DNA from: Rufibacter roseolus
GTDB taxonomy: Bacteria; Bacteroidota; Bacteroidia; Cytophagales; Hymenobacteraceae
Reading direction: 5' to 3'
DNA: 64,000 nt
NCBI RefSeq assembly: GCF_017916365.1
Contig: NZ_JAFMSU010000001.1
Coordinates: forward strand, 434,001-498,000
Positions within the stretch are counted from its first letter, which is position 1. The number at the start of each line of letters is the position of its first letter. Of this stretch, positions 41,433 to 57,525 are shown piece after piece. A program made the translations under genes and the position numbers. Below the pieces are notes generated by a model. It had not been told where the DNA came from, ran no database searches, and saw nothing but the letters and a program-made list of their open reading frames with translations.

Positions 41433-41453
41433 GCTTTATCCTCCTACCTTGAG

Positions 41454-41790: not shown

Positions 41791-44700
41791 ATGCGGGCTG
41801 CCGGTTCTTTGGATACAGTTTTACAGCAGCTTCAGGCGTTTAAACGCAAATTCTACCTGAACCTGCTTTTTAAAGGTGCTTTACTCTCATTGGGGTTGGT
41901 GCTTTCTTCTTATCTGCTCATCACCGTTCTGGAGTATTTCTTTTATTTCCAGCCGGAGGTACGGGCCTTTCTGCTGTTCTCATTTCTGGCCATCAGTGCC
42001 TTTGCCGTAATCAGATGGCTTTGGGCACCCATTATGGGATTGACCAACCTAAAGAAACTCCTCACCGATGAGCAGGCCGCCCAACAGGTTTCCCATTATT
42101 TCCCAGAGATACAGGACCACCTGCTCAATTTGCTGCAACTGAAAAACGTAGCCATGGGCAATGACCTGGTGGCTGCCAGTGTGGAGCAGCGCTCAGAAGA
42201 ATTGGTAGGGTACCGTTTTCCGGAACGGATCAAGTTCACCCAGAACCGCTCTTACTTTAAATACCTGCTGCTGCCGCTTACTTTGGTGGTGATCCTGGCT
42301 TTCATTTATCCGGCTCTGTTTGTGCAGGGAACGGAACGTATTATCCATTTCAAGCGGCATTATGCCCCTAAAGCTCCTTTCCAGTTTGAAATCCAGAATT
42401 CCTCCTTGCAGGCATTCAAAGGCGAGGACTTTCAGTTGAAGGTGAACATTGAGGGTAATCGGGTACCCGAGGAAGTGTTTCTGGTGATTGACGGCCGCCA
42501 GATGCCGCTCAAGAAGTTGAAAGACCAGACTTACGTTTATGATTTTGAGCAAGTGCAGGAGTCAGTGGATTTCCAGTTGACCGGCGCCGGCTTCTATTCA
42601 GATGAAAACCGCTTAACCGTGGTGGCCAGACCCATGCTTCGGCAGTTGAAGGCCCAGTTACGTTACCCTGCCTATACCAAACGGCCTGCCGAAATCCTGG
42701 ACAACACAGGAGACCTGACCATCCCGGAGGGAACGCAAGTGACCTGGCGCCTGGCCGCGGACAACGCCGATTCGCTCTGGCTACAGTTTGATGCGCCGGT
42801 CCAGAAAGTAAAAGCGCAAACCGAAGACGAAGAATACGTGGTGCGGAAGACGTTCATGCAAAGCCACCGCTACAGCATGCACCTCAAGAACCGCTACTCA
42901 GAGAACAAAGAGCAGATCTCGCACCAGATCACCGTTATCCCAGACCGCAACCCTGAGATTACCCTGGAACAGTTCCGTGACTCGGTGCTGTACTCTTATT
43001 TAGTAGTAGGTGGGACCATCTCAGATGATTACGGCTTCAGCAATCTTTCCCTGCACTACAGGGTGCTCAGAGGAAACAAAGCTGCCACTGGCTACAGAGC
43101 GGTTTCTATTCCGTTCAGTGGTTCTCTGGCCACACAGTCGTATTTCCGACAAATGAACCTGAAGCCGCTGAACCTGCAGCCGGGCGACAAACTAGAGTAC
43201 TTCGTGCAAGTAACCGACAACGACCAGGTTCCCCAACCAAAAAGCGCCCGCACTTCCACGTTCATCTTCAAGTACCCAGACCCGTCTGAGGTGCAGAAAT
43301 CAATTGAGGAGTCTTCGCAGCAGGTGCAGTCCCAGATGAAGTCTTCGCTTACCAAGGCCGAGGAGTTGAAGAAATCCCTGGAGCAGAACGAAGAGAAGAC
43401 CAAGCTGAAGAAAGAACTCTCTTACCAGGATAAAAAAGCCCTGCAAGAACTCGCCGATAAGAAGAAGGCTCTACAGGAAGAACTGGCCCAACTGCAGAAG
43501 ATGAACGAGCAGTTGAACCAGCAACAGGAGCGTTTCTCGCCCCAAAACGAAAAATTAGCCGAGAAACGTGATCAACTCAAGAAGATGATGGACCAACTGC
43601 TGGATGAGGAAACCAAAAAGCTTTATGAGCAACTGGAGAAACTGCTGGAGCAAAAGCAGCCTCGACCAGAACAGATACAGCCGCTTCTGGACAAACTCAA
43701 CAACAAAGAAGAGAACCTGCAGAAAGAGTTGGACCGCCTGCTGGAGATGTTCAAGCAGCTGCAGGTAGAGCAGAAGCTAGACAATGCCCAACAGAAACTG
43801 GATGACTTGGCCAAGAAGCAGGAGGATCTAGCGAACAAAACCGGCGAGCAGAACAATAAGCCAGACCAAGCCTTGCAGCAGGAACAAAAGCAACTGCAAG
43901 AAGAATTCAAGCAGATGCAGAAAGACCTCAAAGAGGCCGAGAAGATGAACGAGCAACTGGAGAATCCTGAGGACATCCCTGACACCGATAAGATGGAGGA
44001 GCAGATTGAGCAGGAGCAGGAGAATGCCCAGGAGTCCATGCAAAAAGGCCAGAACAAGAAAGCGAGTCAGTCGCAGAAATCGGCGGCACAGAAGATGAAG
44101 CAGATGTCGCAGCAGATGCAGAGCCAAGAAATGGAAGGCGATATGCAACAAGCCCAGCAGAACCTGGACCATCTGCGGGACATCCTGGAGAACCTGGTAA
44201 CACTGTCCTTTGACCAGGAGAAATTGATGAAGGACTTCCGGAACGTGCAGCAGAGCGACCCGAGGTTCATCGGGCTGGCACAGCAGCAGATCAAACTCTC
44301 AGATGATGCCAAGATCATTGAAGACTCTTTGCTCTCCCTTGCCAAACGCGTGCCGCAGATACAGTCCTTCGTGACCCGCGAGGTGGGTGCCATGGAAGGG
44401 GAGATGCAGAACAGTTCTGAGGCTATCAAGGACCGGAATCTGCCTAAGACGGGTCAGCACCAGCAACTGGCCATGACCTCCATGAACAACCTGGCCCTGA
44501 TGTTGAGTGACGTGCAGCAGCAGATGCAACAGGCCATGATGGCTATGCAGCAAGCTGGCCCTGGCAAGAAGAAAGGCAAAGGCAAGAACGGAAAGAACCA
44601 ACCGGGCGCTTTAGGGCAAATGCAGCAGCAGTTGAATGAGCAGATCCAGCAGCTTCAGAAGAGCGGCCAAAGTGGTCAGCAATTGTCGGAGCAACTGGCC

Positions 44701-45111
44701 CGCCTAGCGGCACAGCAGGAAATGCTCCGGAATGCCATGAAGGAACTGGCGCCTTCGCCTACTCAGCCGGGGGGCAAAGAAGGAGGGGAGAAACTCAGTA
44801 ATTTGAGCAAGCTCATGGAACAAACCGAAACTGATCTCGTTAATAAACGTCTTACAGAGCAGACCATGATGCGGCAGAAGGAGATTTTGACTCGTTTGCT
44901 GCAAGCTGAGAAAGCCGCCAATGAACGTGATCTGGATGAGAAACGAGAGGCAAACACCGCCAAGGAATTGCCCGCCCGTATCCCGCCATCGCTTCAGAAA
45001 TACCAGGAACGGCAGAAACAGCAGACAGAATCGCTCCGTCAGAACCTACCTGCTTTAACACCTTATTATAAAAAGCAAGTAGATGCTTATTTTAAGCGAT
45101 TAGGTTATTAG
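41791..45111 (+). CDS. DUF4175 family large membrane coiled-coil protein
   Basis: 1106-residue protein of the Bacteroidota DUF4175 family. Two or three N-terminal membrane helices (about 28-90 and 150-170) are followed by an extracytoplasmic beta region (about 200-480). A very long Gln/Lys/Glu-rich coiled coil (about 490-830) comes next, then a Gln/Met-rich stretch (about 900-1010). No enzyme motif is seen; the design suggests an envelope-spanning structural or mechanosensing role, which is inference. It heads a plus-strand run with the RsbW-like gene, ybeY and mnmG. Confidence 0.88.
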   Translation: MRAAGSLDTVLQQLQAFKRKFYLNLLFKGALLSLGLVLSSYLLITVLEYFFYFQPEVRAFLLFSFLAISAFAVIRWLWAPIMGLTNLKKLLTDEQAAQQVSHYFPEIQDHLLNLLQLKNVAMGNDLVAASVEQRSEELVGYRFPERIKFTQNRSYFKYLLLPLTLVVILAFIYPALFVQGTERIIHFKRHYAPKAPFQFEIQNSSLQAFKGEDFQLKVNIEGNRVPEEVFLVIDGRQMPLKKLKDQTYVYDFEQVQESVDFQLTGAGFYSDENRLTVVARPMLRQLKAQLRYPAYTKRPAEILDNTGDLTIPEGTQVTWRLAADNADSLWLQFDAPVQKVKAQTEDEEYVVRKTFMQSHRYSMHLKNRYSENKEQISHQITVIPDRNPEITLEQFRDSVLYSYLVVGGTISDDYGFSNLSLHYRVLRGNKAATGYRAVSIPFSGSLATQSYFRQMNLKPLNLQPGDKLEYFVQVTDNDQVPQPKSARTSTFIFKYPDPSEVQKSIEESSQQVQSQMKSSLTKAEELKKSLEQNEEKTKLKKELSYQDKKALQELADKKKALQEELAQLQKMNEQLNQQQERFSPQNEKLAEKRDQLKKMMDQLLDEETKKLYEQLEKLLEQKQPRPEQIQPLLDKLNNKEENLQKELDRLLEMFKQLQVEQKLDNAQQKLDDLAKKQEDLANKTGEQNNKPDQALQQEQKQLQEEFKQMQKDLKEAEKMNEQLENPEDIPDTDKMEEQIEQEQENAQESMQKGQNKKASQSQKSAAQKMKQMSQQMQSQEMEGDMQQAQQNLDHLRDILENLVTLSFDQEKLMKDFRNVQQSDPRFIGLAQQQIKLSDDAKIIEDSLLSLAKRVPQIQSFVTREVGAMEGEMQNSSEAIKDRNLPKTGQHQQLAMTSMNNLALMLSDVQQQMQQAMMAMQQAGPGKKKGKGKNGKNQPGALGQMQQQLNEQIQQLQKSGQSGQQLSEQLARLAAQQEMLRNAMKELAPSPTQPGGKEGGEKLSNLSKLMEQTETDLVNKRLTEQTMMRQKEILTRLLQAEKAANERDLDEKREANTAKELPARIPPSLQKYQERQKQQTESLRQNLPALTPYYKKQVDAYFKRLGY

Positions 45112-45144
45112 ATTTGCAGACATTTCAGATATAGTAAACATATT

Positions 45145-45564
45145 ATGAATCAAGTTAAAATTCAGATTCCTTCTATCATTGAGAATATCCGTATCGTGGA
45201 GAGCTTCATTGACAACTCACGGGAGAAATTTCAGATTGAAGATGACATCTATGGTAATATCATGGTTGCCGTGACGGAATCTGTGAACAACGCCATCAGA
45301 CACGGCAACAAGTTTGATAAAGATAAGAACGTCTATCTTTCTCTTTTTGTAGAGCCCAACCAACTTCGCTTTGAAGTACAGGACGAAGGAAACGGATTTG
45401 ACCCAGAGACCTTATCTGACCCAACTGCCCCAGAGAACCTGGAGAACCCCGGCGGAAGAGGTATCTTCTTAATGCGTAACCTCTGCGACGATGTCTCTTT
45501 CAGTAATGACGGACGTACGGTTTCTTTAACTTTCAATATTGAGAATGCAGGAACTACCCATTGA
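45145..45564 (+). CDS. RsbW/SpoIIAB-like ATP-binding protein (HATPase_c_2)
   Basis: 139-residue GHKL ATPase of the anti-sigma-factor kinase type. The N box VTESVNNAIRHGN (about 46-58) and the glycine-rich G boxes EVQDEGNGFDP (about 77-87) and NPGGRGIFLMRNLCDDV are complete. It would bind or phosphorylate a regulatory partner; no sigma factor or STAS antagonist is adjacent. It lies 33 bp after the DUF4175 gene, and its end overlaps ybeY by 20 bp. Confidence 0.9.
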   Translation: MNQVKIQIPSIIENIRIVESFIDNSREKFQIEDDIYGNIMVAVTESVNNAIRHGNKFDKDKNVYLSLFVEPNQLRFEVQDEGNGFDPETLSDPTAPENLENPGGRGIFLMRNLCDDVSFSNDGRTVSLTFNIENAGTTH

Positions 45565-45976
45565 GTTCTTTACCGAGGAGGTAGAATTTGAGGTTAAAAA
45601 CGAAGAGAAAGTCAAAACGTGGCTTTTGGAAATAATTTCGAAATATGACTTCGAATTAGAATCTTTGAACTACATTTTTTGTTCCGATGAATATCTTCAT
45701 CAGATGAATGTAGAATACTTAGAGCATGATACGCTCACTGATGTCATCACCTTTGATAATTCCGACTTTGAGGGAGTTATTGAAGGTGATGTTTTCATTA
45801 GTATAGACCGCATTGTGGACAATGCCGCTACTTTCAACATTTCCCCAGAAGAAGAGCTTCACCGGGTAATGGCGCATGGCTTACTCCACTTGCTCGGTTT
45901 TGATGATAAAACGCCAGAAAAGAAGGCTTTAATGCGAGCCAAAGAAAATGAGTGTTTAGATCTGCTGAAGTTGTAA
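45545..45976 (+). CDS. ybeY: endoribonuclease YbeY (rRNA maturation factor)
   Basis: 143-residue UPF0054 protein that takes part in 16S rRNA 3'-end maturation and ribosome quality control. The zinc motif reads His111-x3-His115-x5-Asp121 (HGLLHLLGFDD); the third ligand is Asp rather than His, as I recall for other Bacteroidota members. ATG 45545 is preferred over the TTG at 45539. It overlaps the RsbW-like gene in another frame, indicating coupled translation. Confidence 0.93.
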   Translation: MQELPIEFFTEEVEFEVKNEEKVKTWLLEIISKYDFELESLNYIFCSDEYLHQMNVEYLEHDTLTDVITFDNSDFEGVIEGDVFISIDRIVDNAATFNISPEEELHRVMAHGLLHLLGFDDKTPEKKALMRAKENECLDLLKL

Positions 45977-46012
45977 ACACCTCTTTCTAGAGTTTTCCTC
46001 ACTTATCAACAA

Positions 46013-46028
46013 TGTTTCACGTGAAACA
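46013..46028. other. parS centromere site (perfect 16-bp palindrome)
   Basis: TGTTTCACGTGAAACA equals the consensus bacterial parS bound by ParB/Spo0J. It lies in the 69-bp ybeY-mnmG gap. DnaA-box-like 9-mers flank it: TTATCAACA (46003-46011) and TAATCCACA (46035-46043), each one base off TTATCCACA. In most bacteria parS sites cluster near oriC. Confidence 0.9.
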
Positions 46029-46045
46029 TCACACTAATCCACACT

Positions 46046-47908
46046 ATGTTCACAAGTTATGATGTAATAGTAGTTGGGGCGGGACATGCCGGGTGCGAAG
46101 CTGCACATGCGGCCGCCACCATGGGGTCGAAGGTATTGCTCGTAACCATGAACATGAACACTATTGCGCAAATGTCCTGCAACCCGGCTATGGGGGGCGT
46201 GGCCAAAGGCCAGATTGTAAGAGAAGTTGACGCCCTGGGTGGCATGAGCGGAATCATTACGGACAAGACCATGATCCAATTTCGGATGCTGAACATGTCC
46301 AAGGGTCCCGCCATGTGGAGCCCGCGGGCTCAGAGCGACCGCATGCGCTTTGCTGAGGAGTGGAGAATGGCCCTGGAGCAAACGCCTAATATTGATTTCT
46401 GGCAGGAGATGGTTTCTGAGATCCTGGTGGAAGACTGCCAGGCGGTAGGAGTGAAGACCAGCCTGGGCATTGAGATCAGAGCCAAAGCCGTAGTCTTAAC
46501 CAACGGAACCTTCCTGAATGGCATCATCCATATTGGCGAGAAAAAATTGGGCGGCGGCAGAGCCGCCGAAAAATCCGCAAAAGGCATCACCGAGCAATTG
46601 GTGCAGTTGGGCTTTGAAGCCGGCCGCATGAAAACCGGAACGCCTCCGCGCGTAGACGGCCGTAGCCTGAACTATGACGTGATGGAAGAGCAGAAGGGCG
46701 ATGAGAATCCGTCTAAGTTCTCCTACACCGATACCCCGGCGCTCACCAATCAGCGGAGCTGCTACATCACGTACACTAACTCCAAAGTACACGAGATCCT
46801 GAAAACCGGGTTTGAGAAATCGCCCATGTTCCAGGGACGCATCCAAGGCTTGGGTCCGAGGTACTGCCCATCCATTGAAGATAAGATCAACCGATTCGCG
46901 GAACGTGACCGTCACCAGATCTTCGTGGAACCGGAAGGATGGAGCACCGTGGAAGTTTACGTGAACGGTTTCTCCAGCTCATTGCCCGAGGATGTGCAGT
47001 TCAAAGCCCTCCGCGAAATCCCCGGATTTGAGAACGCGAAGATGTTCAGACCGGGTTACGCTATTGAATATGACTTCTTCCCGCCTACCCAATTGAACCT
47101 CACGCTGGAAACGAAGTTGGTGGATAACCTCTACTTCGCAGGGCAGATTAACGGTACCACCGGATACGAGGAAGCGGCCTGCCAGGGCCTTATGGCGGGA
47201 ATTAACGCCCATAATAAGGTGCATAACTCAGAACCGTTCGTCTTGAAAAGATCAGAGGCGTACATAGGTGTTTTGATCGACGATCTAGTAAACAAGGGTA
47301 CAAACGAACCATATCGTATGTTCACCTCGCGCGCCGAACACCGCATCTTGTTGCGCCAGGACAACGCAGATCTTCGCCTCACCGAGAAAGGCTACCAACT
47401 GGGTCTTGCCTCAGAAGAGCGTCTGCAGAAAGTGAACCGCAAGAGACAAGAGACGCAGGAAGTACTCACGTATCTGCAGCAAAAAGGAATTGAGCCGGAA
47501 GAAGTAAACGCCATGCTGCTTTCCCTTGACTCCGCACCTATCAGCGAGCGAGCCAAAGCCGGCAATTTGTTGAAACGCCCAAATGTAGAATTGGAGCACC
47601 TGGTGGAATCATCAGAGAGCCTGAAACTGTACCTGAGCAAATATTTACCAGACAGCCTGGAGCAGGCGGTTATTCTTTTGAAATATGCGAGCTATATTGA
47701 GAAAGAAAACCAGATGGCCTCAAAAATGGAGGAACTGGAAAACTACCGCATCAAAGACCGACTGGACTACAAAGCCATCACGGCGCTTTCCAACGAAGCC
47801 CGCGAGAAGCTCTTGAAAGTACAGCCAGAAACCTTAGGACAAGCATCCCGCATCAGTGGCGTATCTCCCGCAGATATCTCCATCCTGATGGTATACTTAG
47901 GAAAATAG
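46046..47908 (+). CDS. mnmG: tRNA uridine-5-carboxymethylaminomethyl modification enzyme MnmG (GidA)
   Basis: 620-residue FAD protein that, with MnmE, installs the cmnm5 group on wobble uridine 34 of several tRNAs. The nucleotide-binding motif GAGHAGCEAA is at 11-20. GidA blocks SCNPAMGGVAKGQIVREVDALGG, GRMKTGTPPRVD, CPSIEDKINRF and GQINGTTGYEEAACQGL, plus the helical C-terminal MnmE/tRNA-binding domain, are all present. It starts 18 bp after parS. In many bacteria gidA borders the replication origin. mnmE is not in the window. Confidence 0.97.
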   Translation: MFTSYDVIVVGAGHAGCEAAHAAATMGSKVLLVTMNMNTIAQMSCNPAMGGVAKGQIVREVDALGGMSGIITDKTMIQFRMLNMSKGPAMWSPRAQSDRMRFAEEWRMALEQTPNIDFWQEMVSEILVEDCQAVGVKTSLGIEIRAKAVVLTNGTFLNGIIHIGEKKLGGGRAAEKSAKGITEQLVQLGFEAGRMKTGTPPRVDGRSLNYDVMEEQKGDENPSKFSYTDTPALTNQRSCYITYTNSKVHEILKTGFEKSPMFQGRIQGLGPRYCPSIEDKINRFAERDRHQIFVEPEGWSTVEVYVNGFSSSLPEDVQFKALREIPGFENAKMFRPGYAIEYDFFPPTQLNLTLETKLVDNLYFAGQINGTTGYEEAACQGLMAGINAHNKVHNSEPFVLKRSEAYIGVLIDDLVNKGTNEPYRMFTSRAEHRILLRQDNADLRLTEKGYQLGLASEERLQKVNRKRQETQEVLTYLQQKGIEPEEVNAMLLSLDSAPISERAKAGNLLKRPNVELEHLVESSESLKLYLSKYLPDSLEQAVILLKYASYIEKENQMASKMEELENYRIKDRLDYKAITALSNEAREKLLKVQPETLGQASRISGVSPADISILMVYLGK

Positions 47909-47909
47909 A

Positions 47910-48797
47910 ATGAGCTACGAACGGCTAGACCATTGCCCCATTTGTTCAAAAACAGAGTTTAAGAATTTTCTAGTAGTACAAGACAAAAGCGTAAGCCAGG
48001 AGAGTTTTGTGATTGTGCAGTGCAAAAACTGCCAGCTCAAGTTCACGAACCCGCGTCCGCCCGAGGAGAGCATAGCCCCGTACTATGCCTCGGAGGCTTA
48101 CATCTCCCATTCAGATACTAGCAAAGGCCTGCTTAATAAAACCTACCGCCTGGTTCGTTCCATGGCGGTAAAGAACAAGGTGGAGCTGGTAAACAAACTG
48201 GGAAACAAGGGCCGCATCTTAGACTACGGTTGTGGAGTGGGTTATTTCCTGCAGGGTTGCCAAAAACAAGGCTGGCAAGTAGAAGGAGTAGAGCCCAACG
48301 AGGCAGCCCGGAAGCAGACGGAGGAGAAAATTGGCAAGCCGCTGTTTCAAGGCAGTTTAGAAGAAATTGGCCAGGAAACGTTTGAGGTAGTCACCATGTG
48401 GCACGTATTGGAGCACATCCACCAGTTGAACGAAACGCTCAAAGCTCTGGTGAACGCCACCAAAAAAGGAGGCCATGTAGTGATTGCCGTACCTAACGCA
48501 GATTCCTACGATGCCAAGAAGTATGGCGCCAATTGGGCTGCGTACGATGTTCCGCGCCATCTGTACCACTTCAACAAAGCCAGCATGCAGCGGCTTTTGA
48601 AAAAACACCGGTTGCAGCTCAAAGAAGTGTTACCTATGAAGTGGGACGCCTACTACGTGAGCATCCTCAGTGAGAAGTACAAGAACGGGCAGACCAAGAT
48701 GCTGGATTCCTTTTACACAGGGTTCAGGTCTAACCTCCACGGTGCCCAGAATGACAATTCTTACTCCAGCCAAATCTTCATCGCGCAGAAAAATTAA
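47910..48797 (+). CDS. class I SAM-dependent methyltransferase with N-terminal zinc ribbon
   Basis: 295-residue methyltransferase. An N-terminal Cys4 zinc ribbon (Cys9, Cys12, Cys38, Cys41: CPIC, CKNC) is followed by FTNPRPPEESI. The SAM-binding motif ILDYGCGVGYFL is at about 109-120 and the post-motif WHVLEHIH at about 167-174. This arrangement resembles sugar or small-molecule methyltransferases; the substrate is unknown. It begins 2 bp after the mnmG stop, so it is in the same operon. Confidence 0.88.
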   Translation: MSYERLDHCPICSKTEFKNFLVVQDKSVSQESFVIVQCKNCQLKFTNPRPPEESIAPYYASEAYISHSDTSKGLLNKTYRLVRSMAVKNKVELVNKLGNKGRILDYGCGVGYFLQGCQKQGWQVEGVEPNEAARKQTEEKIGKPLFQGSLEEIGQETFEVVTMWHVLEHIHQLNETLKALVNATKKGGHVVIAVPNADSYDAKKYGANWAAYDVPRHLYHFNKASMQRLLKKHRLQLKEVLPMKWDAYYVSILSEKYKNGQTKMLDSFYTGFRSNLHGAQNDNSYSSQIFIAQKN

Positions 48798-48814
48798 ACA
48801 GATACACTAAGCGT

Positions 48815-48849
48815 AATGACCTTGCAGTTCACACTGTAAGGTCATTTCC
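48815..48849 (+). terminator. terminator after methyltransferase gene
   Basis: 14-bp stem with one G-U pair, AATGACCTTGCAGT / ACTGTAAGGTCATT, loop 4 nt, followed by TTCC. Lies only 16 bp before the next ATG, so it may act as an attenuator for that gene. Confidence 0.65.
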
Positions 48850-48864
48850 ATTTTAAAGCCAAAA

Positions 48865-50454
48865 ATGAAAAATCAGCTTAAAAACGCACTCACGGGCCTA
48901 GCCCTGTTTCTAAGTGGGTGCGCCAGCATCAGCAGCCCCGAGGGGGGAGCCAAAGATGTCACGCCTCCAAAACTTGTGAGCAGCTATCCCAGCAACGGGC
49001 AAACCAACGTAAAACCCGAGAAGATCACGTTGACCTTTGACGAGAACATCCAGACGGTAGACCTCACGCGGCAACTCATTATCGCACCGTTCACAGACAA
49101 TACTTATAAGAGTAGGGTGAAAGACGGCACAGTGGAACTCACCTTTTCCAAGCCCTGGGACGAGAACACCACCTATAGCCTCAACTTCAGAAACAGCCTG
49201 GCAGATCTCACGGAGAAAAACCCGGCCCGCAACGTGGTCGTCACTTTCAGTACTGGTCCTTTATTAGACTCGGGGAGGGTAAGCGGCAAGGCCAACCTGC
49301 TGTTCAGCAACACGCCACCTAAAGAAGTGAACGTGCTCTTATACCCAGTAACGGATACTTCCCAAGTAACCAAAGGCCGCCCGCTGTACGTGACCAATAC
49401 AGACTCCAGCGGAAACTTCAACTTCAGGAACATCAAAGAAGGAGACTACTTCATCTACGGCTTAACTGAAAGCAACAACAACCTGCGGTACGACAATGAA
49501 AATGAATTCATCGCCTACACCACAGACACCATCAAAGTACGGCCCTCAGTTGAGGGCGTTCAGCTGCGCCTGCATACCCAGGATGTGACCCGGCCCAACG
49601 TAGTGGCCAGGAGAAGCTTCCTGAACATGTATGAGGTGGAGTACAATGAGGGAATAGCCCAAGCCAGAGTTACCGCTGCTGACAAAGATCCCAACATGAG
49701 ATACCTCATAGCCAACAACGGGAAAACCCTGCGCCTGTTCCCAGCCAAACCAGATGAAAAACAGTGGCTCGTGGAAGTGCAGGATAGCGCCAGCAACTCC
49801 CGCCTGGATACTGTGGCCGTGCGCCTCAGCGGGAAAGCGGCCCCTCGCCGCAACAACAGCTTTGCGGTATTGAACGGGTCACCCGTGAAACCCGGCGAGC
49901 AGATCAGGGTGCAGTTTGAGGTACCCACCAAAGTGGTGAATCCGGTGGGGGCCTTCTCCTTCGTGCTGGATTCTGTGACCACCGTCTCCACCAAAGACAC
50001 CTCAGAGTTCCGGTTCAACCCCGAGACCACCCAGATAACTTTCCGGTTGCCGCTCGCAGCCAAACGCGAGATCGAAGTGAACATGGATACGACCAAGGTC
50101 TTGCCTTACATCGGGGAACCTTATGGCAAAATGCCGCAGAACCTGGAAGTAAGCGATAAGGTGGATGCCGGTAGCCTGAAAGTACTCCTGAAAACTACCC
50201 AGAAGAACTTCATTGTGCAGCTCCTGTCCCAGAATGCCGTGGTGGAGGAAGTGAAGAACCAAAAGACTATTCTCTGGGACGATCTCAAGCCGGGGTCATA
50301 TCAGATCAGGATCCTGGTAGACCTGAACGGCAACGGAAAATGGGACAACGGCCTCTTGAAGGAGCGCCGATTGCCCGAGCCGGTAGTCTTACCCAAGGAC
50401 ATTTGGGAGCTCAGGGCCAACTGGGAAATTGAATCCCAGGTCATAGAGTTCTAG
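48865..50454 (+). CDS. Ig-like (Big_5) domain lipoprotein
   Basis: 529-residue lipoprotein: signal LTGLALFLSGCASI with the lipobox Cys near residue 20. SPEGGAKDVTPPKLVSSYPSNGQTNVKPEKITLTFDENIQ is the start of a bacterial Ig-like Big_5 domain (about 27-125). A carboxypeptidase-regulatory-like part follows (about 130-230), and the end (KPGSYQIRILVDLNGNGKWDNG) is also beta-rich. It is likely an envelope-anchored beta-sandwich protein of unknown role, widely kept next to mnmG in relatives as I recall. The last plus-strand gene before the putative origin. Confidence 0.85.
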   Translation: MKNQLKNALTGLALFLSGCASISSPEGGAKDVTPPKLVSSYPSNGQTNVKPEKITLTFDENIQTVDLTRQLIIAPFTDNTYKSRVKDGTVELTFSKPWDENTTYSLNFRNSLADLTEKNPARNVVVTFSTGPLLDSGRVSGKANLLFSNTPPKEVNVLLYPVTDTSQVTKGRPLYVTNTDSSGNFNFRNIKEGDYFIYGLTESNNNLRYDNENEFIAYTTDTIKVRPSVEGVQLRLHTQDVTRPNVVARRSFLNMYEVEYNEGIAQARVTAADKDPNMRYLIANNGKTLRLFPAKPDEKQWLVEVQDSASNSRLDTVAVRLSGKAAPRRNNSFAVLNGSPVKPGEQIRVQFEVPTKVVNPVGAFSFVLDSVTTVSTKDTSEFRFNPETTQITFRLPLAAKREIEVNMDTTKVLPYIGEPYGKMPQNLEVSDKVDAGSLKVLLKTTQKNFIVQLLSQNAVVEEVKNQKTILWDDLKPGSYQIRILVDLNGNGKWDNGLLKERRLPEPVVLPKDIWELRANWEIESQVIEF

Positions 50455-51022
50455 CGTGGAAACGGGGTGGATAACTGTGGACAAGAATATGGATAAAACC
50501 GGCGCAAGTCTGATAAATCAAAAACCCAAAACCGAAGATTCTACGTTCAAACATGCAATTGTGGGTGGCCGTGCATAAAAACAGAATTTTCGAAAAGTTA
50601 TGCACGTGAGTATAAACGTTGGGCCTTTTCCCCGTCTTTTTGTGTGAAGAAGTGGAAAGTTCCCGTAAGTACCTGATAAAGACGATAAAAGAATCCACAG
50701 AGACTTGGGAATAAATGGGACTACTACGAGGATATTTCAGAAGTGCGGGGAAAACGTGGGGACAAGAAATTTTATCCACTTCTGCACAGCCCTAATGACG
50801 AACAAGATTCTTTTTTAAAAAAATCATTTTATAATAGATATCAGGTTGACTCCGTGGAAAAGTGGGAAAAGCCGAAAAATCAGGAATGAGAAGGGGGAGC
50901 TGGGGCGCGGCGCGGTTTTGCCGCAGATGGCCCGAACAGGGGCCAAATGTGGAAGACCCGCTATTTTTGAGTAGTTTTAGGAAAATAAACCCGGAAACGG
51001 AACCATATAACCAATTGAAACT
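50455..51022. other. putative chromosomal replication origin (oriC) region
   Basis: 568-bp gene-free stretch with many 9-mers close to TTATCCACA. Three lie in tandem on the minus strand: 50466-50474 (TTATCCACC), 50476-50484 (TTGTCCACA) and 50488-50496 (TTATCCATA), spaced 10 and 12 bp, about one helix turn. Others are 50570-50578 (minus), 50598-50606 (TTATGCACG) and 50772-50780 (TTATCCACT); weaker ones are at 50691 and 50780. An AT-rich tract at 50809-50842 could be the unwinding element. A parS site lies 4.4 kb away. dnaA is not in the window. Inference from sequence motifs only. Confidence 0.6.
50963..50998. repeat. 36-bp dyad copy 23
   Basis: ATTTTTGAGTAGTTTTA and GAAAATAAACCCGGAAAC, 25 bp before the ATG at 51023, so it would be in the 5' leader of that gene. 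Confidence 0.5.
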
Positions 51023-51502
51023 ATGGAACAGGACAAAGAACAATTTGACAATGAGATAAAGCTGGGATACGGCATTGGCGATTTACACTTCGGGTTAAGC
51101 ATGGATGATGTGGAGGAGATCATGGGCGAGCCCGAGGAAGTAGAAGAGTCTGACGAGGAAGATGAGTTTGAGCACAAGGCCTGGAACTACTGGGACAGCG
51201 GCTTCTCGTTCTACTTTGACAAAGAAGACGACTACCGCCTGAGCTGCATAGAGACCGCCAACCCCAACGTAACATTGTTCGGGAAGAAGATCTTTGAAAT
51301 GAGCCAGCAGGAAGTAGAAGATCTCTTCAAGCAGAATGGCGTGCAGAACGTGGAAAAGGAGAAAATCGAGAACAACGTGACCTGCCTTTCTTACGAGCGC
51401 GAGATGATTGACCTGTACTTTGAAGAAGGTAAGCTACTAGCCGTAAACTTCGGGGTACACATGGACGATAACCTGGAAGTACTTTGGCCAAAAGAAGGCT
51501 AA
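51023..51502 (+). CDS. acidic conserved hypothetical protein
   Basis: 159-residue, strongly acidic protein (GEPEEVEESDEEDEFEHK near 37-54). It has two similar halves: GIGDLHFGLSMDDVEEIMGEP and LFGKKIFEMSQQEVEDLFKQNG, each followed by a strand block (FSFYFDKEDDYRLSCIE; MIDLYFEEGKLLAVNFG). This suggests a duplicated small alpha/beta repeat. No enzyme motif is seen and no function is known. It is the first gene to the right of the putative origin and ends in a perfect terminator. Confidence 0.78.
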   Translation: MEQDKEQFDNEIKLGYGIGDLHFGLSMDDVEEIMGEPEEVEESDEEDEFEHKAWNYWDSGFSFYFDKEDDYRLSCIETANPNVTLFGKKIFEMSQQEVEDLFKQNGVQNVEKEKIENNVTCLSYEREMIDLYFEEGKLLAVNFGVHMDDNLEVLWPKEG

Positions 51503-51535
51503 GGGCATCAACCAGTAACTGCTACATACTCTATT

Positions 51536-51572
51536 AAACAGAAAGAACCGCCTAAAGCGGTTCTTTCTGTTT
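51536..51572 (+). terminator. terminator of acidic hypothetical gene
   Basis: Perfect 16-bp stem AAACAGAAAGAACCGC / GCGGTTCTTTCTGTTT, loop 5 nt. Confidence 0.93.
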
Positions 51573-51594
51573 ATAGCCAATTTTAAACCCATGC

Positions 51595-51630
51595 GTTTTG
51601 CCACTGTTTTTCAAAAAACAAGCCCAAAAT
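51595..51630. repeat. 36-bp dyad copy 24
   Basis: GTTTTGCCACTGTTTTT and AAAAACAAGCCCAAAAT; just past the terminator. With the copy at 51952 it brackets the long palindrome at 51690. Confidence 0.65.
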
Positions 51631-51689
51631 GGCTGCGGTATACCAAGGCATGTGCCCGGTTATCACCAAATACGCAATCCTGAAGCGGC

Positions 51690-51735
51690 TCATTTTTCAG
51701 GTTCCACGAAAATACCCGTGGAACCTGAAAAATGA
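51690..51735. repeat. long perfect palindrome, 19-bp arms
   Basis: TCATTTTTCAGGTTCCACG, 8 nt (AAAATACC), then its exact inverse. It lies in the 601-bp gene-free stretch 51503-52103. There is no T tract after the stem, so a terminator role is not obvious. The rest of the stretch has two dyads, two terminators and no coding signal. Confidence 0.8.
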
Positions 51736-51951
51736 AGGCCTTATAGAAGCCATTTTTAAGACCGTACAGCCATCGGGCCAGGAATAACGAGCTCTCATGA
51801 GCCTGATCAAGCTGCAGCCTTTAGAAGGGCCTCTATTCACTAATTGCCTTATGGGTTTACGTTCCATCTGGAGGTTGGCTCAAGAAGTCCTGGAGGAACG
51901 CTAAAAGAAATGAAATAAGCCAAGACTCTAGACGCATTAAAATTGCCATTC

Positions 51952-51987
51952 CATTTGGGAGCTGTTTTACAGAAATCAGCCTTAAAC
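51952..51987. repeat. 36-bp dyad copy 25
   Basis: CATTTGGGAGCTGTTTTAC and GAAATCAGCCTTAAAC, 116 bp past the minus-strand phosphate transporter stop. Confidence 0.65.
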
Positions 51988-52045
51988 CAGCTTTAGGTTT
52001 AACGGAGAGCAGAGATCAAGTAGGCAGTTGAGGTCAAATCGGGGT

Positions 52046-52089
52046 AAAACAAAAGAGCCGCTACATCACTGCAGCGGCTCTTTTGTTTT
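52046..52089 (-). terminator. terminator of phosphate transporter gene
   Basis: Perfect 17-bp stem AAAACAAAAGAGCCGCT / AGCGGCTCTTTTGTTTT, loop 10 nt. Confidence 0.93.
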
Positions 52090-52103
52090 GAGGTAAAGGT
52101 GGT

Positions 52104-53510
52104 TTAGGCAAACATCCAGCGGAAGATCAGGAACAACGTTCCGGATAAGAACATGGAAACCGGCAGGGTCAGTACCCAGGCCAAGGCAATGTTCCGGATG
52201 GTGCCGGCATTCAGGTTCTTGATCCCGCGGTTGGCCACCATACTACCGGCAATACCGGAAGAAAGGATGTGGGTGGTACTCACCGGAAGTTTGAACACGA
52301 ACGTAGAGAAACCAATCACGCTGGCAGCCATGAACTCAGCCGAAGCGCCCTGGGCGTAGGTAAGGTGTTCCTTTCCTATTTTCTCGCCAATGGTTTTCAC
52401 AATGCGTTTCCAGCCAATCATAGTCCCGATACCCAGAGAAAGCGCGATCATCATGATTACCCAGTTAGGGGCGTAGTCTGTGTAAGAGCGTAGGCCGGTT
52501 ACCCCAGCTTTCAATTGGTCGCGGTCACGCTGACTTAGGGTAATATCCTGGCTTTCCATCAACTTATCAGATCCTTTGGTGATTAAAAGGATGTCACGGC
52601 GCAGCAGGAAACGGCTGTCTTTAGGTAAAGCTTCGGTAGATGGGTTAGCGGTAAGAAGGCTTCTCATTTCTCTGGTCTCAGCATTCAAAAGGCTTAACTG
52701 CTTGGCATCAGTGGCAGACAGAACGGTGCTGTCTACTTTGGTCAATACCTGCTCAACCTGGGTAACGGAACCCAACAAGCCCGCCGGATCTTTGTCGCGG
52801 TCCAAGGCATAGTAAGAAGGAACAATGGCAATCAAGATCAGCATCACCAGACCAACCCCTTTTTGGCCGTCATTTGATCCGTGGAAGAAAGATACCAGGG
52901 TACAGGTGATAATAAGAATGATACGGATCCACAATGGGGGAGCTTTGCGTTTGTGCGGCTCCTTGAAAATGGTCTTGTTTTTCACAAACCGCTTCAAAAG
53001 GAACATCAGGAAAACGGTCAACGTGAAACCCAGGAAAGGAGATACCAGAAGAGACATCCCGGTTTTGGTGGCCTCAGACCAGGCAAAGGTAGCCTCGGTG
53101 GTAGAGGGCAGCAGCGAATAGGCGATTCCTAGTCCCAGGATGGAGCCGATTAGCGTGTGGGAGCTGGAAGAGGGCAGACCGTAGTACCAAGTACCCACGT
53201 TCCAGATAATGGCGCTTATCAATAAAGCCCCAATCATGGCAATGCCGTGCCAGACATCCTGGTCAATGAGCGTCTCAATGGGCAACAGGTACACAATACC
53301 CATGGCTACCCCAATACCGCCGGCAAAAACGCCAATGAAATTCCAAAAGCCAGACCAGACAACCGCTGCCCAGGGGCGCAAGGTGTTGGTGTAGATAACG
53401 GTGGCCACAGCATTAGCCGTGTCATGGAAACCGTTCACAAATTCAAATGCACACGCGGCCAGTAAGCAGATTACCAGCAAGATCAAAAGATCCGTTTCTA
53501 GTCCAAACAT
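52104..53510 (-). CDS. PiT family inorganic phosphate transporter
   Basis: 468-residue polytopic protein of the PiT (PitA/PHO4) family, driving phosphate or metal-phosphate uptake by ion symport. The duplicated signatures are FVNGFHDTANAVATVIYT (about 24-41) and GFSTFVFKLPVSTTHILSSG (about 399-418). About ten helices flank a soluble loop (about 235-330) in the middle. Phosphate regulators such as phoU are not adjacent. Own promoter and terminator, so a single-gene unit. Confidence 0.93.
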   Translation of the reverse strand: MFGLETDLLILLVICLLAACAFEFVNGFHDTANAVATVIYTNTLRPWAAVVWSGFWNFIGVFAGGIGVAMGIVYLLPIETLIDQDVWHGIAMIGALLISAIIWNVGTWYYGLPSSSSHTLIGSILGLGIAYSLLPSTTEATFAWSEATKTGMSLLVSPFLGFTLTVFLMFLLKRFVKNKTIFKEPHKRKAPPLWIRIILIITCTLVSFFHGSNDGQKGVGLVMLILIAIVPSYYALDRDKDPAGLLGSVTQVEQVLTKVDSTVLSATDAKQLSLLNAETREMRSLLTANPSTEALPKDSRFLLRRDILLITKGSDKLMESQDITLSQRDRDQLKAGVTGLRSYTDYAPNWVIMMIALSLGIGTMIGWKRIVKTIGEKIGKEHLTYAQGASAEFMAASVIGFSTFVFKLPVSTTHILSSGIAGSMVANRGIKNLNAGTIRNIALAWVLTLPVSMFLSGTLFLIFRWMFA

Positions 53511-53538
53511 AATGTATTATAGGTGAGAAAAAAGCTGC

Positions 53539-53566
53539 CAAAATTAAGGGTTTAAATACCTTGCAA
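53539..53566 (-). promoter_or_regulatory. promoter of phosphate transporter gene
   Basis: Minus-strand -7 box TAATTTTG at 53539-53546 and TTG at 53564-53566 (17 bp spacer), about 29 bp before the ATG. Confidence 0.55.
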
Positions 53567-53715
53567 TGTTACCGAATTGTTAAGGAATGCTGCCCCCTTC
53601 AATTTTAGGCTCAGTAAAAGTACGAAGCATGCGTTAACTCCACTCATAATCAGGGGGCAAGACAGAACATTTACGCCCCGCAGGCGGTATCTCTCTAACC
53701 AAACCCATACGTTGT

Positions 53716-53749
53716 TTTGCCAAAAGTGCCAACGAAACCTCTATATTTG
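53716..53749 (+). promoter_or_regulatory. glyS promoter implying near-leaderless mRNA
   Basis: TTTG at 53716-53719 and TATATTTG (TAnnTTTG) at 53742-53749, only 5 bp before the ATG at 53755. Transcription would begin at or within a few bases of the start codon. Confidence 0.6.
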
Positions 53750-53754
53750 CGCCC

Positions 53755-55251
53755 ATGAGCACAACTGAGAAAACCACAGAGAACGCACAGTTAAAAGATA
53801 TCATCTCGCACGCTAAGGAATACGGCTTCGTGTTCCCGTCCAGCGAGATCTATGACGGACTTCAGGCCGTGTATGATTACGGTCAAAATGGGGTGGAGTT
53901 GAAAAACAACCTCAAAACGCTTTGGTGGAAATGCATGACGCAACTGCACCAGAACGTAGTGGGCATTGACGCTGCCATCTTCATGCACCCCAGCACCTGG
54001 AAAGCATCGGGCCACGTAGACTCTTTCAACGACCCCATGATTGATAACCTCGACTCCAAGAAGCGCTACCGCGCCGATGTTCTGATTGAGGAAAAAGCCG
54101 CCGAGTACGAGAAAGCCGGCGATGTGGAGAAAGCCCAATCTTTGCTGCAGGAAATGGGCCGTTTGTTGGGCGCCGAAGATTTGAAAGGCGTACAGCAATT
54201 GATTACCTCAGAAAACATAAAATGCCCAATCTCAGGCACTTCTAACTGGACCGAAGTACGCCAATTCAACCTCATGTTCTCCACACAGGTAGGATCAGTG
54301 GCCGAGGACTCCAGCACCATTTATCTACGCCCCGAAACCGCCCAGGGAATCTTCGTGAACTTCCTGAATGTGCAGAAATCAGGCCGTATGAAAGTACCTT
54401 TCGGAATTGCTCAGATTGGTAAGGCGTTCCGGAACGAGATTGTAGCCCGTCAGTTCATCTTCAGAATGCGCGAGTTTGAGCAGATGGAGATGCAGTTCTT
54501 CGTGCGCCCTGGCACAGAGATGGAATGGTACCAGCACTGGAGAACCATGCGCCGCAACTGGCACGAGGCCCTGGGTGTTCCCGCCGAGAAGCTCCGTTTC
54601 CACGACCACGAGAAGCTGGCCCACTACGCGAACGCCGCCGTGGACATTGAATTTGAATTCCCCTTCGGATTCAAGGAAGTAGAGGGCATTCACTCAAGAA
54701 CTGACTTTGACCTGACGCAGCACCAGAATCTGAGCCGCAAAAAGCAGCAGTACTTTGACAATGACTTGAACGAAGACGGCAAACCCTACGGAAATTACGT
54801 GCCTTACGTAGTGGAAACTTCCGTAGGCGCCGACCGCCTGTTCCTGATGACGCTCTGCAACGCCTTCACCGAGGAAGAAGTAACCGAAGGAGACGCTACC
54901 AAAACCCGTACCTTCCTGAAGTTCCACCCGGCCATTGCCCCGGTGAAAGCCGCCATCTTCCCGCTCGTGCGCAAAGACGGTTTGCCAGACAAAGCCATGC
55001 AGATCTTCGATGACCTGAAATTCGATTTCAATATCATCTACGAAGAGCGCGATGCCATCGGGAAACGCTACACTCGCCAGGACCTGATCGGAACGCCGTT
55101 CTGTATCGCCGTGGATTACGAGACCCTGGAGAACGACACCGTCACTGTGCGTGACCGTGACAGTCGCGAACAGAAGCGCATGCACATCTCAGAACTGCGC
55201 CAGTACATCGGTGATGCCGTCAGCTTCAAGCGCATCTTCGAGAAAATTTAA
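53755..55251 (+). CDS. glyS: glycyl-tRNA synthetase (single-chain, class II)
   Basis: 498-residue alpha2-type glycyl-tRNA synthetase, charging tRNA-Gly. Class II motif 2 is FRNEIVARQFIFRMREFEQMEMQFF (about 224-248) and motif 3 contains SVGADRLFLMTL (about 357-368). An anticodon-binding domain starts near 395 (PAIAPVKAAIFPL). The N-terminal HAKEYGFVFPSSEIYDG is typical. The gene is single and has a strong promoter that nearly touches the start codon. Confidence 0.97.
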   Translation: MSTTEKTTENAQLKDIISHAKEYGFVFPSSEIYDGLQAVYDYGQNGVELKNNLKTLWWKCMTQLHQNVVGIDAAIFMHPSTWKASGHVDSFNDPMIDNLDSKKRYRADVLIEEKAAEYEKAGDVEKAQSLLQEMGRLLGAEDLKGVQQLITSENIKCPISGTSNWTEVRQFNLMFSTQVGSVAEDSSTIYLRPETAQGIFVNFLNVQKSGRMKVPFGIAQIGKAFRNEIVARQFIFRMREFEQMEMQFFVRPGTEMEWYQHWRTMRRNWHEALGVPAEKLRFHDHEKLAHYANAAVDIEFEFPFGFKEVEGIHSRTDFDLTQHQNLSRKKQQYFDNDLNEDGKPYGNYVPYVVETSVGADRLFLMTLCNAFTEEEVTEGDATKTRTFLKFHPAIAPVKAAIFPLVRKDGLPDKAMQIFDDLKFDFNIIYEERDAIGKRYTRQDLIGTPFCIAVDYETLENDTVTVRDRDSREQKRMHISELRQYIGDAVSFKRIFEKI

Positions 55252-55256
55252 CCCGT

Positions 55257-55292
55257 GGAAATCTGCTGGTTTCCCAAAAACAGCTTCTAAAC
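55257..55292. repeat. 36-bp dyad copy 26
   Basis: 5 bp after the glyS stop; GGAAATCTGCTGGTTTCC and AAAAACAGCTTCTAAAC. Left outer arm diverged. Confidence 0.55.
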
Positions 55293-55300
55293 ACATTAAC

Positions 55301-55340
55301 ACGAAAAAGGCCTCTGCAGAAATGTAGAGGCCTATTTTGT
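55301..55340 (+). terminator. glyS terminator
   Basis: AGGCCTCTGCA / TGTAGAGGCCT (one G-U), tetraloop, flanked by AAAAA and TATTTTG. Confidence 0.88.
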
Positions 55341-55422
55341 GTGGGATAAACTAAGATTAAGCAAGCGCCTGAAGGTAGGTTTTCCACTTGGATGTATAAG
55401 CTCCTTATCAAAACAATTCTCA

Positions 55423-55864
55423 TGGTTCAAGTCTGTGACTTGGACCTACCATGGGCTGCAGTTTGCAACTGCAGTGAAGCGTTAGCTTCAAAAGACGTTC
55501 ACCTTATTAATAGAGTAAATTGCTGGGAGTAAACTGCTGGCGCGAGCTTGCAGCTCGTGTCCGCACGCATTCCTGAGATAAAATCTGCATACTCTATTTT
55601 GTCATCTTGGAAAGATCTTGTGAGCGAACTAGAAAAGCATTGAAGTAACGCTTCTGCCGTTTGCCCACAAGATCTTTCCAAGATGACAGAAGAGGGTAAA
55701 GGCTTTTATAGACCAGAGGCTAAACCTTTATAAAGAATGAAAGCGCTGTTAGCAATGCGTGCGGACACGAGCCGGAGGCTCGCGCCAGCGAACGTGCGAT
55801 ATTATTATTTAGCTGCAGTTACAAACTGCAGTTCATAGTAGGTCCAAGTCACAGACTTGAACCA
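55423..55864. repeat. nested array of four REP-like palindrome families
   Basis: Four short palindromes occur as mirrored pairs. A: 55423-55449 and its exact inverse 55838-55864 (core CAAGTCTGTGACTTG). B: 55455-55474 and 55812-55831 (CTGCAGTT...AACTGCAG). C: 55536-55575 and 55754-55789 (GCTGGCGCGAGC...GCTCGTGTCCGCAC). D: 55600-55622 and its exact inverse 55666-55688 (TGTCATCTTGGAAAGATC). The whole is a giant imperfect inverted repeat in the 715-bp gap 55252-55966, bracketed by 36-bp dyads. No gene is seen. Confidence 0.85.
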
Positions 55865-55898
55865 TATAAATTTTAGGTGTAGACCAGCTATAAACCAA

Positions 55899-55945
55899 AA
55901 AAGCGCATTGGGCCTGTATTCATTAAAACAGGCCCAATGCGCTTT
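55899..55945 (-). terminator. epimerase terminator built from 36-bp dyad copy 27
   Basis: Perfect 19-bp stem AAAAGCGCATTGGGCCTGT / ACAGGCCCAATGCGCTTTT, loop 9 nt, 21 bp past the epimerase stop. The 36-bp dyad unit is 55905-55940; outer pairs are GCATTGGG/CCCAATGC. Confidence 0.9.
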
Positions 55946-55966
55946 TCAATTTACAGAACAAATTTC

Positions 55967-57055
55967 TCAGGATAGGGTAGGAGCGAAGTCTACCCCATGA
56001 CCAGCCACTTCAGGATTCAACCGCAGTACTTCACCTGCTTGTTCAAAGCCGCCGCTGAACGGATGCTCCGCTATAAATAAAGGAGTGTCCAGATCTATGT
56101 ACCCGAACCCGCCGATGCCAGCGGCGAAATGGGCGGAGAAGGTCATGGCCAGAATACTCTCCACCATGCCGCCAATCATGAGACCTAATCCGTGGACCTG
56201 CGCCAGGGCTGCCATCTGCAGTGCTTCCAGCACGCCGCACTTCATCAATTTGATGTTGACAATCGTGGCGCTTTGGTCCTGTGCCAACCGTGAAACATCT
56301 TGTGCGCTGCGGGCAGACTCATCGGCAGCGATGGGGAAAGGACATGTGGTTGCCAACACCGCCAGGTCTTCCCAGGATTCACGTGGAAGTGGCTGTTCCA
56401 ATAAGATGATCGGGATTTTGGCTTCGGCGGCTCTGTTGACAAAGGCTTGGGCACGCTCCAAATCATAACCACAATTTCCGTCAACAATCAGTTTTGCCCC
56501 CGGTGCTGCGTTGTGGATTGCCTGAATTCGGCGGAGATCGTAATCCACATCGGTTCCTTCGGTCTTTACTTTTATAATAGAGAACCCGCGTTCCACGATG
56601 GACTTGGCCGAAGCCGCGGCGTGCGCCTCATCGCCGGCGGTGATGGTGAGGTCGGTGACCAACTGCGTCTGCACTCCTCCGAAGAAAACATACAGCGGCA
56701 TCTGGTAGTGTTTGCAAAGTGCGTCTAGGATCGCCATCTCCAACCCGCACCGGGCAGCGGGTGCATTATGGGCGAGTTTATCTAATTCCTTGGCCAAGGT
56801 GCGCCAGTTTTTGACGTCTTTCCCGATGAGGTGTTTCTCCAAATCCTGCAGTACCGCCAGGGTGCTTTCCTGTGTCTCGCCGCTCACCGCCGGGAACGGA
56901 GCCGCCTCGCCCAAACCAGTCGTTCCATCCGCCAGCTGCACCTGCACCACCACATTTTCCACTTGGTACTGGGTGCCCGTGGCTATGGCGAAAGGTTCTA
57001 TCAGAGGCAGATTCAACGGTTGATAACTCACCGAGACGATTTGGGTAGAATTCAT
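55967..57055 (-). CDS. dipeptide epimerase (L-Ala-D/L-Glu epimerase type, enolase superfamily)
   Basis: 362 residues from ATG 57055; a Met 12 codons upstream (57091) is less likely. Enolase-superfamily residues are complete: Lys162-x-Lys164 (IIKVKTEG), metal ligands Asp192 (VDGN), Glu220 (LLEQP) and Asp245 (AADES), and Lys269 (VNIKLMKCG). This is the muconate-lactonizing subgroup pattern of dipeptide epimerases, which interconvert L-Ala-D-Glu and L-Ala-L-Glu in murein-peptide recycling. It may complement the VanX-type dipeptidase at 21262. Exact dipeptide preference is inferred. Confidence 0.9.
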   Translation of the reverse strand: MNSTQIVSVSYQPLNLPLIEPFAIATGTQYQVENVVVQVQLADGTTGLGEAAPFPAVSGETQESTLAVLQDLEKHLIGKDVKNWRTLAKELDKLAHNAPAARCGLEMAILDALCKHYQMPLYVFFGGVQTQLVTDLTITAGDEAHAAASAKSIVERGFSIIKVKTEGTDVDYDLRRIQAIHNAAPGAKLIVDGNCGYDLERAQAFVNRAAEAKIPIILLEQPLPRESWEDLAVLATTCPFPIAADESARSAQDVSRLAQDQSATIVNIKLMKCGVLEALQMAALAQVHGLGLMIGGMVESILAMTFSAHFAAGIGGFGYIDLDTPLFIAEHPFSGGFEQAGEVLRLNPEVAGHGVDFAPTLS

Positions 57056-57181
57056 GCTTTTTTGTTTATAGGTGTGCCGGCAAAGAAACAAAGAAAGGAA
57101 ATGCCGCCGATAGAAAAACCGCGAATAAAATCTACCAAGGCCGAAAGCATGGAAGTTATCCTGTGAAAAAGTGGTTTTCCT

Positions 57182-57217
57182 GTTTCAAGGCTGTTTTGGG
57201 AAAAGGAGGCCTAAAAT
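57182..57217. repeat. 36-bp dyad copy 28
   Basis: GTTTCAAGGCTGTTTTG and GAAAAGGAGGCCTAAAAT, upstream of the epimerase. With the copy at 57430 it brackets a REP C pair. Confidence 0.7.
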
Positions 57218-57265
57218 GAGGAGTTGTCCACGGCAAGTTTTCTGTAACATCACCAAGCCCTTTTC

Positions 57266-57354
57266 GCTGGCGCGAGCCTCCGGCTCGTGTCCGCACGTAT
57301 TCCTGAATGGCTATTCCACAATGTGAAGGCACGAGCGGGACGCTCGCGCCAGCG
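57266..57354. repeat. second REP family C mirrored pair
   Basis: GCTGGCGCGAGCCTCCGGCT continues CGTGTCCGCAC (57266-57306), then a shorter inverted relative (CACGAGCGGGACGCTCGCG within 57328-57354). Same family as the C units at 55536 and 55754. The remainder of 57056-57654 holds two dyads and the ileS leader; no gene. Confidence 0.8.
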
Positions 57355-57429
57355 GAGGAGAAGCCATCGAGAAGCTTCAATGATCTGGTGCCGTTACTTC
57401 CTCTAATCAGAGTCAATAAGCAGCGAGTC

Positions 57430-57465: not shown

Positions 57466-57506
57466 GGAAAAAAGCGTTGGAATCCTAACAGAAGTTATTT
57501 ATTGTT

Positions 57507-57514: not shown

Positions 57515-57525
57515 CTTAATTATGG

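Follow-up and report, generated by a model that had tools for sequence, protein, structure and literature searches.

The stretch of DNA analysed, a window of 64,000 nucleotides, covers positions 434001-498000 of contig C1 in the 5.5 Mb, seven-contig genome of a Rufibacter (Hymenobacteraceae, Cytophagales). Towards its right end, a gap of 568 bp separates a gene for an Ig-like protein from a small ORF; no gene is evident in it, as the initial annotation had stated, and the two reading frames at 48865-50454 and 51023-51502 form its borders. To the left of the gap, upstream of the Ig-like gene, lie a DUF4175 gene, an ATPase-domain gene, ybeY, a parS site, mnmG and a methyltransferase gene. The Ig-like protein is 92% identical to its counterpart in Rufibacter hautae; its identity to the proteins of Sabulibacter ruber and six further Rufibacter is 74-80%. 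The ORF on the right had no match in a Pfam search, and an Rfam search of 40000-58000 returned none at the gathering score. Directly 5' of this ORF, a block TTTTTGAGTAGTTTTA...AAAA at 50960-51022 is largely conserved in 15 Rufibacter genomes and is probably its promoter. The main elements of the locus are as follows.

46013-46028, no strand: parS, perfect palindrome TGTTTCACGTGAAACA, the sole perfect copy in the genome
46046-47908, plus strand: mnmG (gidA), neighbour gene (PF01134, E 9.1e-166)
48865-50454, plus strand: gene for an Ig-like protein (Pfam domain Big_5), flanking the gap on the left and used as synteny anchor
50455-51022, no strand: intergenic gap, predicted oriC, 568 bp, richer in DnaA boxes than any other window of the 1.09 Mb sampled
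51023-51502: ORF of 159 aa to the right of the gap, from the ORF list

A DnaA box was defined as TTATNCACA with up to one mismatch. By this definition the gap holds ten boxes, spread over 320 bp. Dinucleotide shuffling of the gap yielded a mean of 0.50 boxes and a maximum of 5, and none of the 2000 shuffles reached ten. The next best window of 568 bp holds five boxes among 21,262 windows (1,093,329 bases), a sample of about a fifth of the genome. A comparison of box density, which had been proposed as a check, singles out the gap both in these 1.09 Mb and in 7/7 Rufibacter loci across about 100 kb on each side. The tandem boxes first recognised at 50466, 50476 and 50488 are all present, on the minus strand and with the spacing of 10 and 12 bp, as are the one-mismatch boxes at 50570, 50598 and 50772; four further one-mismatch boxes, at 50607, 50643, 50706 and 50780, extend that list. 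None of the ten is a perfect TTATNCACA, in agreement with the early remark that no 9-mer matches the consensus exactly. The boxes to the left of position 50772 are arranged as follows, with their retention among 15 Rufibacter genomes.

50466-50496, minus strand: outer array of three DnaA boxes, TTATCCACC (50466), TTGTCCACA (50476) and TTATCCATA (50488), spaced 10 and 12 bp
50570-50578, minus strand: DnaA box TTATGCACG, kept in some of the 15 genomes
50598-50606, plus strand: DnaA box TTATGCACG, 12/15 genomes
50607-50615, minus strand: weak DnaA box TTATACTCA, 12/15 genomes
50643-50651, minus strand: DnaA box TTCTTCACA, inside a conserved TGTGAAGAAGTGGAAA block, 13/15 genomes
50706-50714, minus strand: weak box TTATTCCCA, with a box at or near the same offset in 6/15 genomes

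All three one-mismatch boxes of the outer array are kept in nine of the 15 genomes, the source genome counted, and the box at 50706 may be a chance occurrence.

New here is a putative core of 98 bp, 50772-50869, in which boxes, a spacer, triplets, an AT-rich tract and an inverted box pair follow one another.

50772-50788, plus strand: left tandem pair TTATCCAC/TTCTGCACA, 8 bp from start to start, the 9-mers overlapping by one base
50789-50800, plus strand: 3-nt spacer GCC, then CTA ATG ACG; the other strand reads 3'-GAT TAC TGC-5' and is DnaA-trio-like
50809-50842, no strand: AT-rich tract, predicted DNA unwinding element, 30/34 A/T
50853-50869, minus strand: inverted pair facing the AT tract, TTTTCCACG (50853-50861) and TTTCCCACT (50861-50869), 8 bp apart

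The first core box, TTATCCACT at 50772, has one mismatch and is found in 14/15 Rufibacter genomes; the second 9-mer, TTCTGCACA, has two mismatches to the consensus, and a one-mismatch box at 50780, the second of the pair, occurs in 13/15. The first two triplets of 3'-GAT TAC TGC-5' fit the pattern NAN and the third does not. The 34-bp AT-rich run noted earlier at 50809-50842 is real (its A/T positions were counted by eye), and AT content over 45 nt amounts to 76-98% across the 31 distinct cores with enough sequence for the measurement. The 9-mers of the inverted pair carry two and three mismatches and are weak taken alone. A hairpin across the core was unsupported (z 0.32). Allowing at most one mismatch, the core pattern occurs a single time in the source genome.

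The first 560 bases of the gap contain 6-10 boxes in all 15 Rufibacter genomes (source counted; G001, whose contig ends, is excluded), mostly at fixed offsets, and the alignment of the gap reveals conserved blocks at the boxes and the AT tract. In 7/7 Rufibacter genomes, examined for some 100 kb or more to either side, the gap is the densest box window, and in 8/8 named Rufibacter and Sabulibacter loci the box maximum falls at the gap. Over the same 560 bases, 14 genomes of other genera range from 0 boxes (G025) and 2 (G017 and G022, both with further boxes beyond this stretch) up to 19. In G017, the gap is not the top box window of its 200 kb, and among eight Pontibacter loci the box top is found elsewhere in L102 and L106 and is tied in L100 and L101.

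The left half of the core recurs in Pontibacter, in other Hymenobacteraceae genera and in Algoriphagus. A 27-nt core matrix gave at least 24 bits to 47 of 59 scored sequences, 32 of them distinct, a count that is partly circular, as the 14 core strings behind the matrix come from sequences that it later scored, and that includes five loci chosen by pattern and several named loci duplicating other genomes. The 12 sequences below 24 bits come from four genomes of the same order (G025, G026, G028, G034) and from eight more distant loci (L109-L115, L117). Over 295 genomes of the class, the core pattern found nine matches, 5/11 in the order and 4/284 outside it; the reversed pattern, used as control, found 0/11 and likewise 4/284, so the pattern is uninformative outside the order. 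In the 32 distinct cores, the pattern NTN (3'-NAN-5' on the opposite strand) is matched by the first, second and third triplets behind the 3-nt spacer in 29, 23 and 18 cases, and three consecutive trios are present in 15. Ten more distant loci were compared: L116 and L118 do not extend far enough for a box cluster to be judged, and the eight informative ones (L109-L115, L117), which belong to Flavobacteria, Bacteroidales and one unplaced MAG, have neither a box cluster nor a perfect parS beside the Ig-like gene. The origin neighbourhood therefore differs in these lineages, or the gene has moved. In the unplaced Bacteroidota MAG, L112, a parS with one mismatch lies at -3.7 kb.

A perfect parS 4.4 kb to the left with mnmG in between had been reported from the start; this is borne out, and the methyltransferase and Ig-like genes also lie between. 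No copy with one mismatch was found in the whole genome. A perfect parS occurs at -4.42 to -4.44 kb from the gap in 7/7 Rufibacter genomes and at -4.44 to -4.48 kb in 16/16 named Rufibacter, Sabulibacter and Pontibacter loci; with one mismatch it is found at -4.47 kb in G017, of another genus, and at -4.34 kb in Algoriphagus, where the top box window is at the gap. The site (region 45814-46043) is flanked by the box-like words TTATCAACA (46003) and TAATCCACA (46035), and TTGTCCACA or TTATCCACA is present about 190 bp before it. These three words, the first of which is inside the ybeY ORF, are kept in 7/7 Rufibacter genomes and not in G017.

GC skew places the origin in this part of the chromosome at a coarser scale. 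On contig C1, skew is negative in 10/10 sampled stretches to the left of the window (two of which overlap by 6 kb) and positive in 28/30 to the right; within the window itself, it runs from -0.032 to +0.028. In the direction of the Ig-like gene, skew is negative over the 100 kb preceding the gap and positive over the 100 kb following it in 8/8 genomes, namely the source genome, six other Rufibacter and G017. In the Rufibacter genome G006, assembled as one contig of 4.82 Mb, the opposite switch falls somewhere in the interval 1.62-2.00 Mb; the position halfway round from the gap is 1.946 Mb. A change-point fit to raw skew in four genomes has its optimum at -7 kb, 4.5 log units better than the gap; once ORF strand is included, the optimum moves to -14.5 kb and is 7.6 log units better than the gap. 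The raw-skew optima of individual genomes, in contig direction, lie between -6 and +92 kb. Third-codon-position skew in eight genomes is best fitted at -48 kb, with the gap 31 log units worse and single optima from -53 to +83 kb. Mean raw skew per 10 kb is last negative at -20 to -10 kb (-0.002) and is already +0.001 at -50 to -40 kb. These likelihoods are overconfident, because congeners share genes, ancestry and local gene-level bias. The leftward lean of the skew break, by about 7-50 kb in the fits, is real, and skew by itself locates the origin here to no better than tens of kb. The initial annotation had expected the skew minimum at the gap: the sign change stands at the scale of tens of kb, and the fine-scale fits, which vary with genome and method, do not single out the gap and lean left.

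A box cluster beyond chance in an intergenic region, an AT-rich unwinding element beside the boxes and a nearby parS are three marks of an oriC, and the gap combines all of them, with parS 4.4 kb away. We conclude that 50455-51022 is very probably the chromosomal oriC of this Rufibacter, and the origin reading of the initial annotation is well supported. The dnaA gene, 1.52 Mb from the gap on the same contig, was rejected as the origin: the surrounding 20 kb contain six boxes without a cluster, and skew is positive in the stretches around it (L066-L068).

The strongest competing explanation starts from the skew. The origin could be at another site within 50 kb to the left of the gap, such as 40.1-41.1 kb, and the gap would then be a conserved DnaA titration or regulatory cluster, functionally like datA or DARS. 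The change-point optima at -7 to -48 kb favour this arrangement, as does a set of boxes located roughly between -10.6 and -8.6 kb and kept in part in 7/7 Rufibacter genomes, with 3-5 boxes each, often TAATCCACA, TTATNCACA and ATATCCACA. Its counterpart in the window is listed here together with a second group of clusters further left.

40140-41136: sparse box set near the raw-skew optimum, TAATCCACA (40140), TTATGCACA (40299), TGATGCACA (40481) and ATATCCACA (41128)
19833-21856: box clusters that lie within ORFs and include a perfect TTATCCACA at both 20145 and 21804

Judged by its boxes, the set at 40140-41136 could be a satellite DnaA site or a rival origin. The -10 kb set is sparse, with five boxes in 2.1 kb versus ten in 320 bp of the gap, and the recurring core was not seen there, in a search less close than that at the gap. 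The gap has an AT tract and a core that recurs in other genera. An origin to the left is therefore improbable, and we place it at the gap because of its far denser array, AT tract, recurring core and parS.

The clusters at 19.8-21.9 kb (4-5 boxes) were rejected as an origin, being inside ORFs and not generally conserved. Both are kept in G004. In G009, the second has seven boxes and the first is matched only in part; in G006, the first corresponds to five boxes dispersed across 3 kb and the second to none; and G013 has none and two, respectively. An orthologue search in G014 and G007 was without match. A cluster at 11.4 kb was also rejected, with three boxes.

That the boxes are DnaA-controlled promoter elements of the 159-aa ORF is highly unlikely: DnaA does regulate genes in other bacteria, and the conserved TTTTTGAGTAGTTTTA-like block just upstream makes a promoter likely there, but ten boxes extend over 320 bp, the skew and parS evidence speaks for an origin, the core is kept at differing distances from the next ORF in other genera, and a consensus promoter scan found 3 sites versus 1.5 expected.

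As an oriC, the gap is ordinary; what makes it interesting is a conserved core that may be two-sided. A minus-strand box with at most two mismatches follows the AT tract in 30 of 31 usable distinct cores (of the 32, L101 was dropped since its stretch ends too early), and the plus-strand control gave 3/31. In 500 shuffles, the mean was 13.4 and the maximum 21. Because the cores are related, the test was repeated at the level of ten genera, grouped partly by matching sequences, with a combined p of 9e-5 for the median member and 5e-4 for the worst member of each, and 0.95 for the plus-strand control. Hand-picked members gave p 9e-8, and the median- and worst-member values are relied on instead. 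Within Rufibacter taken by itself, the mirror box does not reach significance, single genomes giving p 0.065 to 0.121, and the right-hand side has a different, weaker spacing; in G057, of another order, the mirror box is absent.

Read by eye, the right side in several genera also consists of a box, three nucleotides and NTN-like triplets, for instance TTATCCACA GGG TTA ATA in G225, CACA GCG CTA ATA in G016 and CACA GCC TTT TTA in Algoriphagus. In G225 (L202, with the core on the minus strand), the inverted side is a perfect TTATCCACA followed by GGG TTA ATA ACT, and it is a better box than many on the left sides.

A sequence of events can be outlined for the predicted origin. DnaA would bind the weak box array at 50466-50651 and the tandem pair at 50772-50788; by analogy with BUS work, a DnaA filament would extend from this pair through the GCC spacer onto CTA-ATG of the separated strand and would open the AT-rich tract at 50809-50842. 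The replicative helicase would then enter, probably with DciA, whose gene is present in the source genome. The weaker inverted pair at 50853-50869 would face the tract from the opposite side, and ParB at parS, 4.4 kb off, would mark the same region for segregation. A search for the IstB/DnaC family found no dedicated helicase loader, its matches being DnaA itself and two longer ORFs. We tentatively suggest, as a possibility that we rate well below even, that the core is a two-sided unwinding module, in which boxes and trio-like triplets point inward from both ends of the tract and one DnaA filament per strand places one helicase each. With DciA present and no dedicated loader in that search, the DNA itself would in that case encode the loading of two helicases in opposite directions. 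If true, this would open one simple answer to dual helicase loading to a direct test. Apart from that, the origin is placed for the genus, in which a start set at dnaA would miss it by 1.5 Mb, and the core can be searched for in other Cytophagales.

The general layout has a familiar counterpart in E. coli, whose oriC is a DnaA box array next to an AT-rich element, near gidA (mnmG). To our knowledge, E. coli oriC has no inward-facing boxes on both sides of the melting element. The helicase loader is DnaC in E. coli, whereas DciA was found in the Rufibacter genome. The left and right DnaA subcomplexes of E. coli are described as both contributing to helicase loading (PMC13220808), and PMC10201434 calls dual helicase loading at bacterial origins still unclear. 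Overlapping DnaA boxes are already known from a figure legend on E. coli DARS2, together with Fis sites; a B. subtilis paper states that overlapping box matches are discarded in its annotation, and another concerns overlap with LexA sites. In the open literature searched, no paper was found to describe a two-sided core or a Rufibacter oriC. The literature consulted also included PMC10225481, PMC10721633, PMC10380432, PMC4447404 and PMC6015884.

Closer relatives offer a similar placement. Ori-Finder predicted an oriC beside mnmG in the Flavobacteriaceae Mariniflexile litorale (PMC11278836) and Algorimicrobium (PMC12843772); as in Rufibacter, the predicted origin is near mnmG, and agreement with GC skew is reported in the relevant passages of both papers. 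For M. litorale, the text says that dnaA does not fit the skew, and a figure legend swaps oriC and ter relative to that text (PMC11278836). The passages concerned give the gene neighbour only (PMC11278836, PMC12843772), whereas here the exact gap, the core and the parS spacing are provided. In the flavobacterial loci that we compared, the Rufibacter-type core is absent downstream of the Ig-like gene.

The left half of the core is best compared with the BUS motif (defined in PMC8287927), described for Bacillus subtilis and others (PMC6669920, PMC8287927). Both combine tandem DnaA boxes, a short spacer, trinucleotides starting from 3'-GAT-5' and an AT-rich tract, as the motif is presented in these papers. 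A BUS comprises a box with at most two mismatches no more than 16 bp from the trios and a second box with at most four, followed by at least three consecutive 3'-NAN-5' trios. The Rufibacter boxes have one (TTATCCACT) and two (TTCTGCACA) mismatches, with spacers of 11 nt and 3 nt, and the source sequence has two trios (GAT, TAC). The better box and the first trio are 11 nt apart, inside the reported BUS peak of 10-13 bp (PMC8287927). The core boxes overlap by one base, whereas the published BUS search, as outlined there, allowed at most 3 bp between tandem boxes (PMC8287927). With only two clean trios, the source core is BUS-like rather than a strict member of the class, and its left side may work like a BUS. 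It differs from a BUS in these two trios and in the second, inverted pair that closes the far end of the tract.
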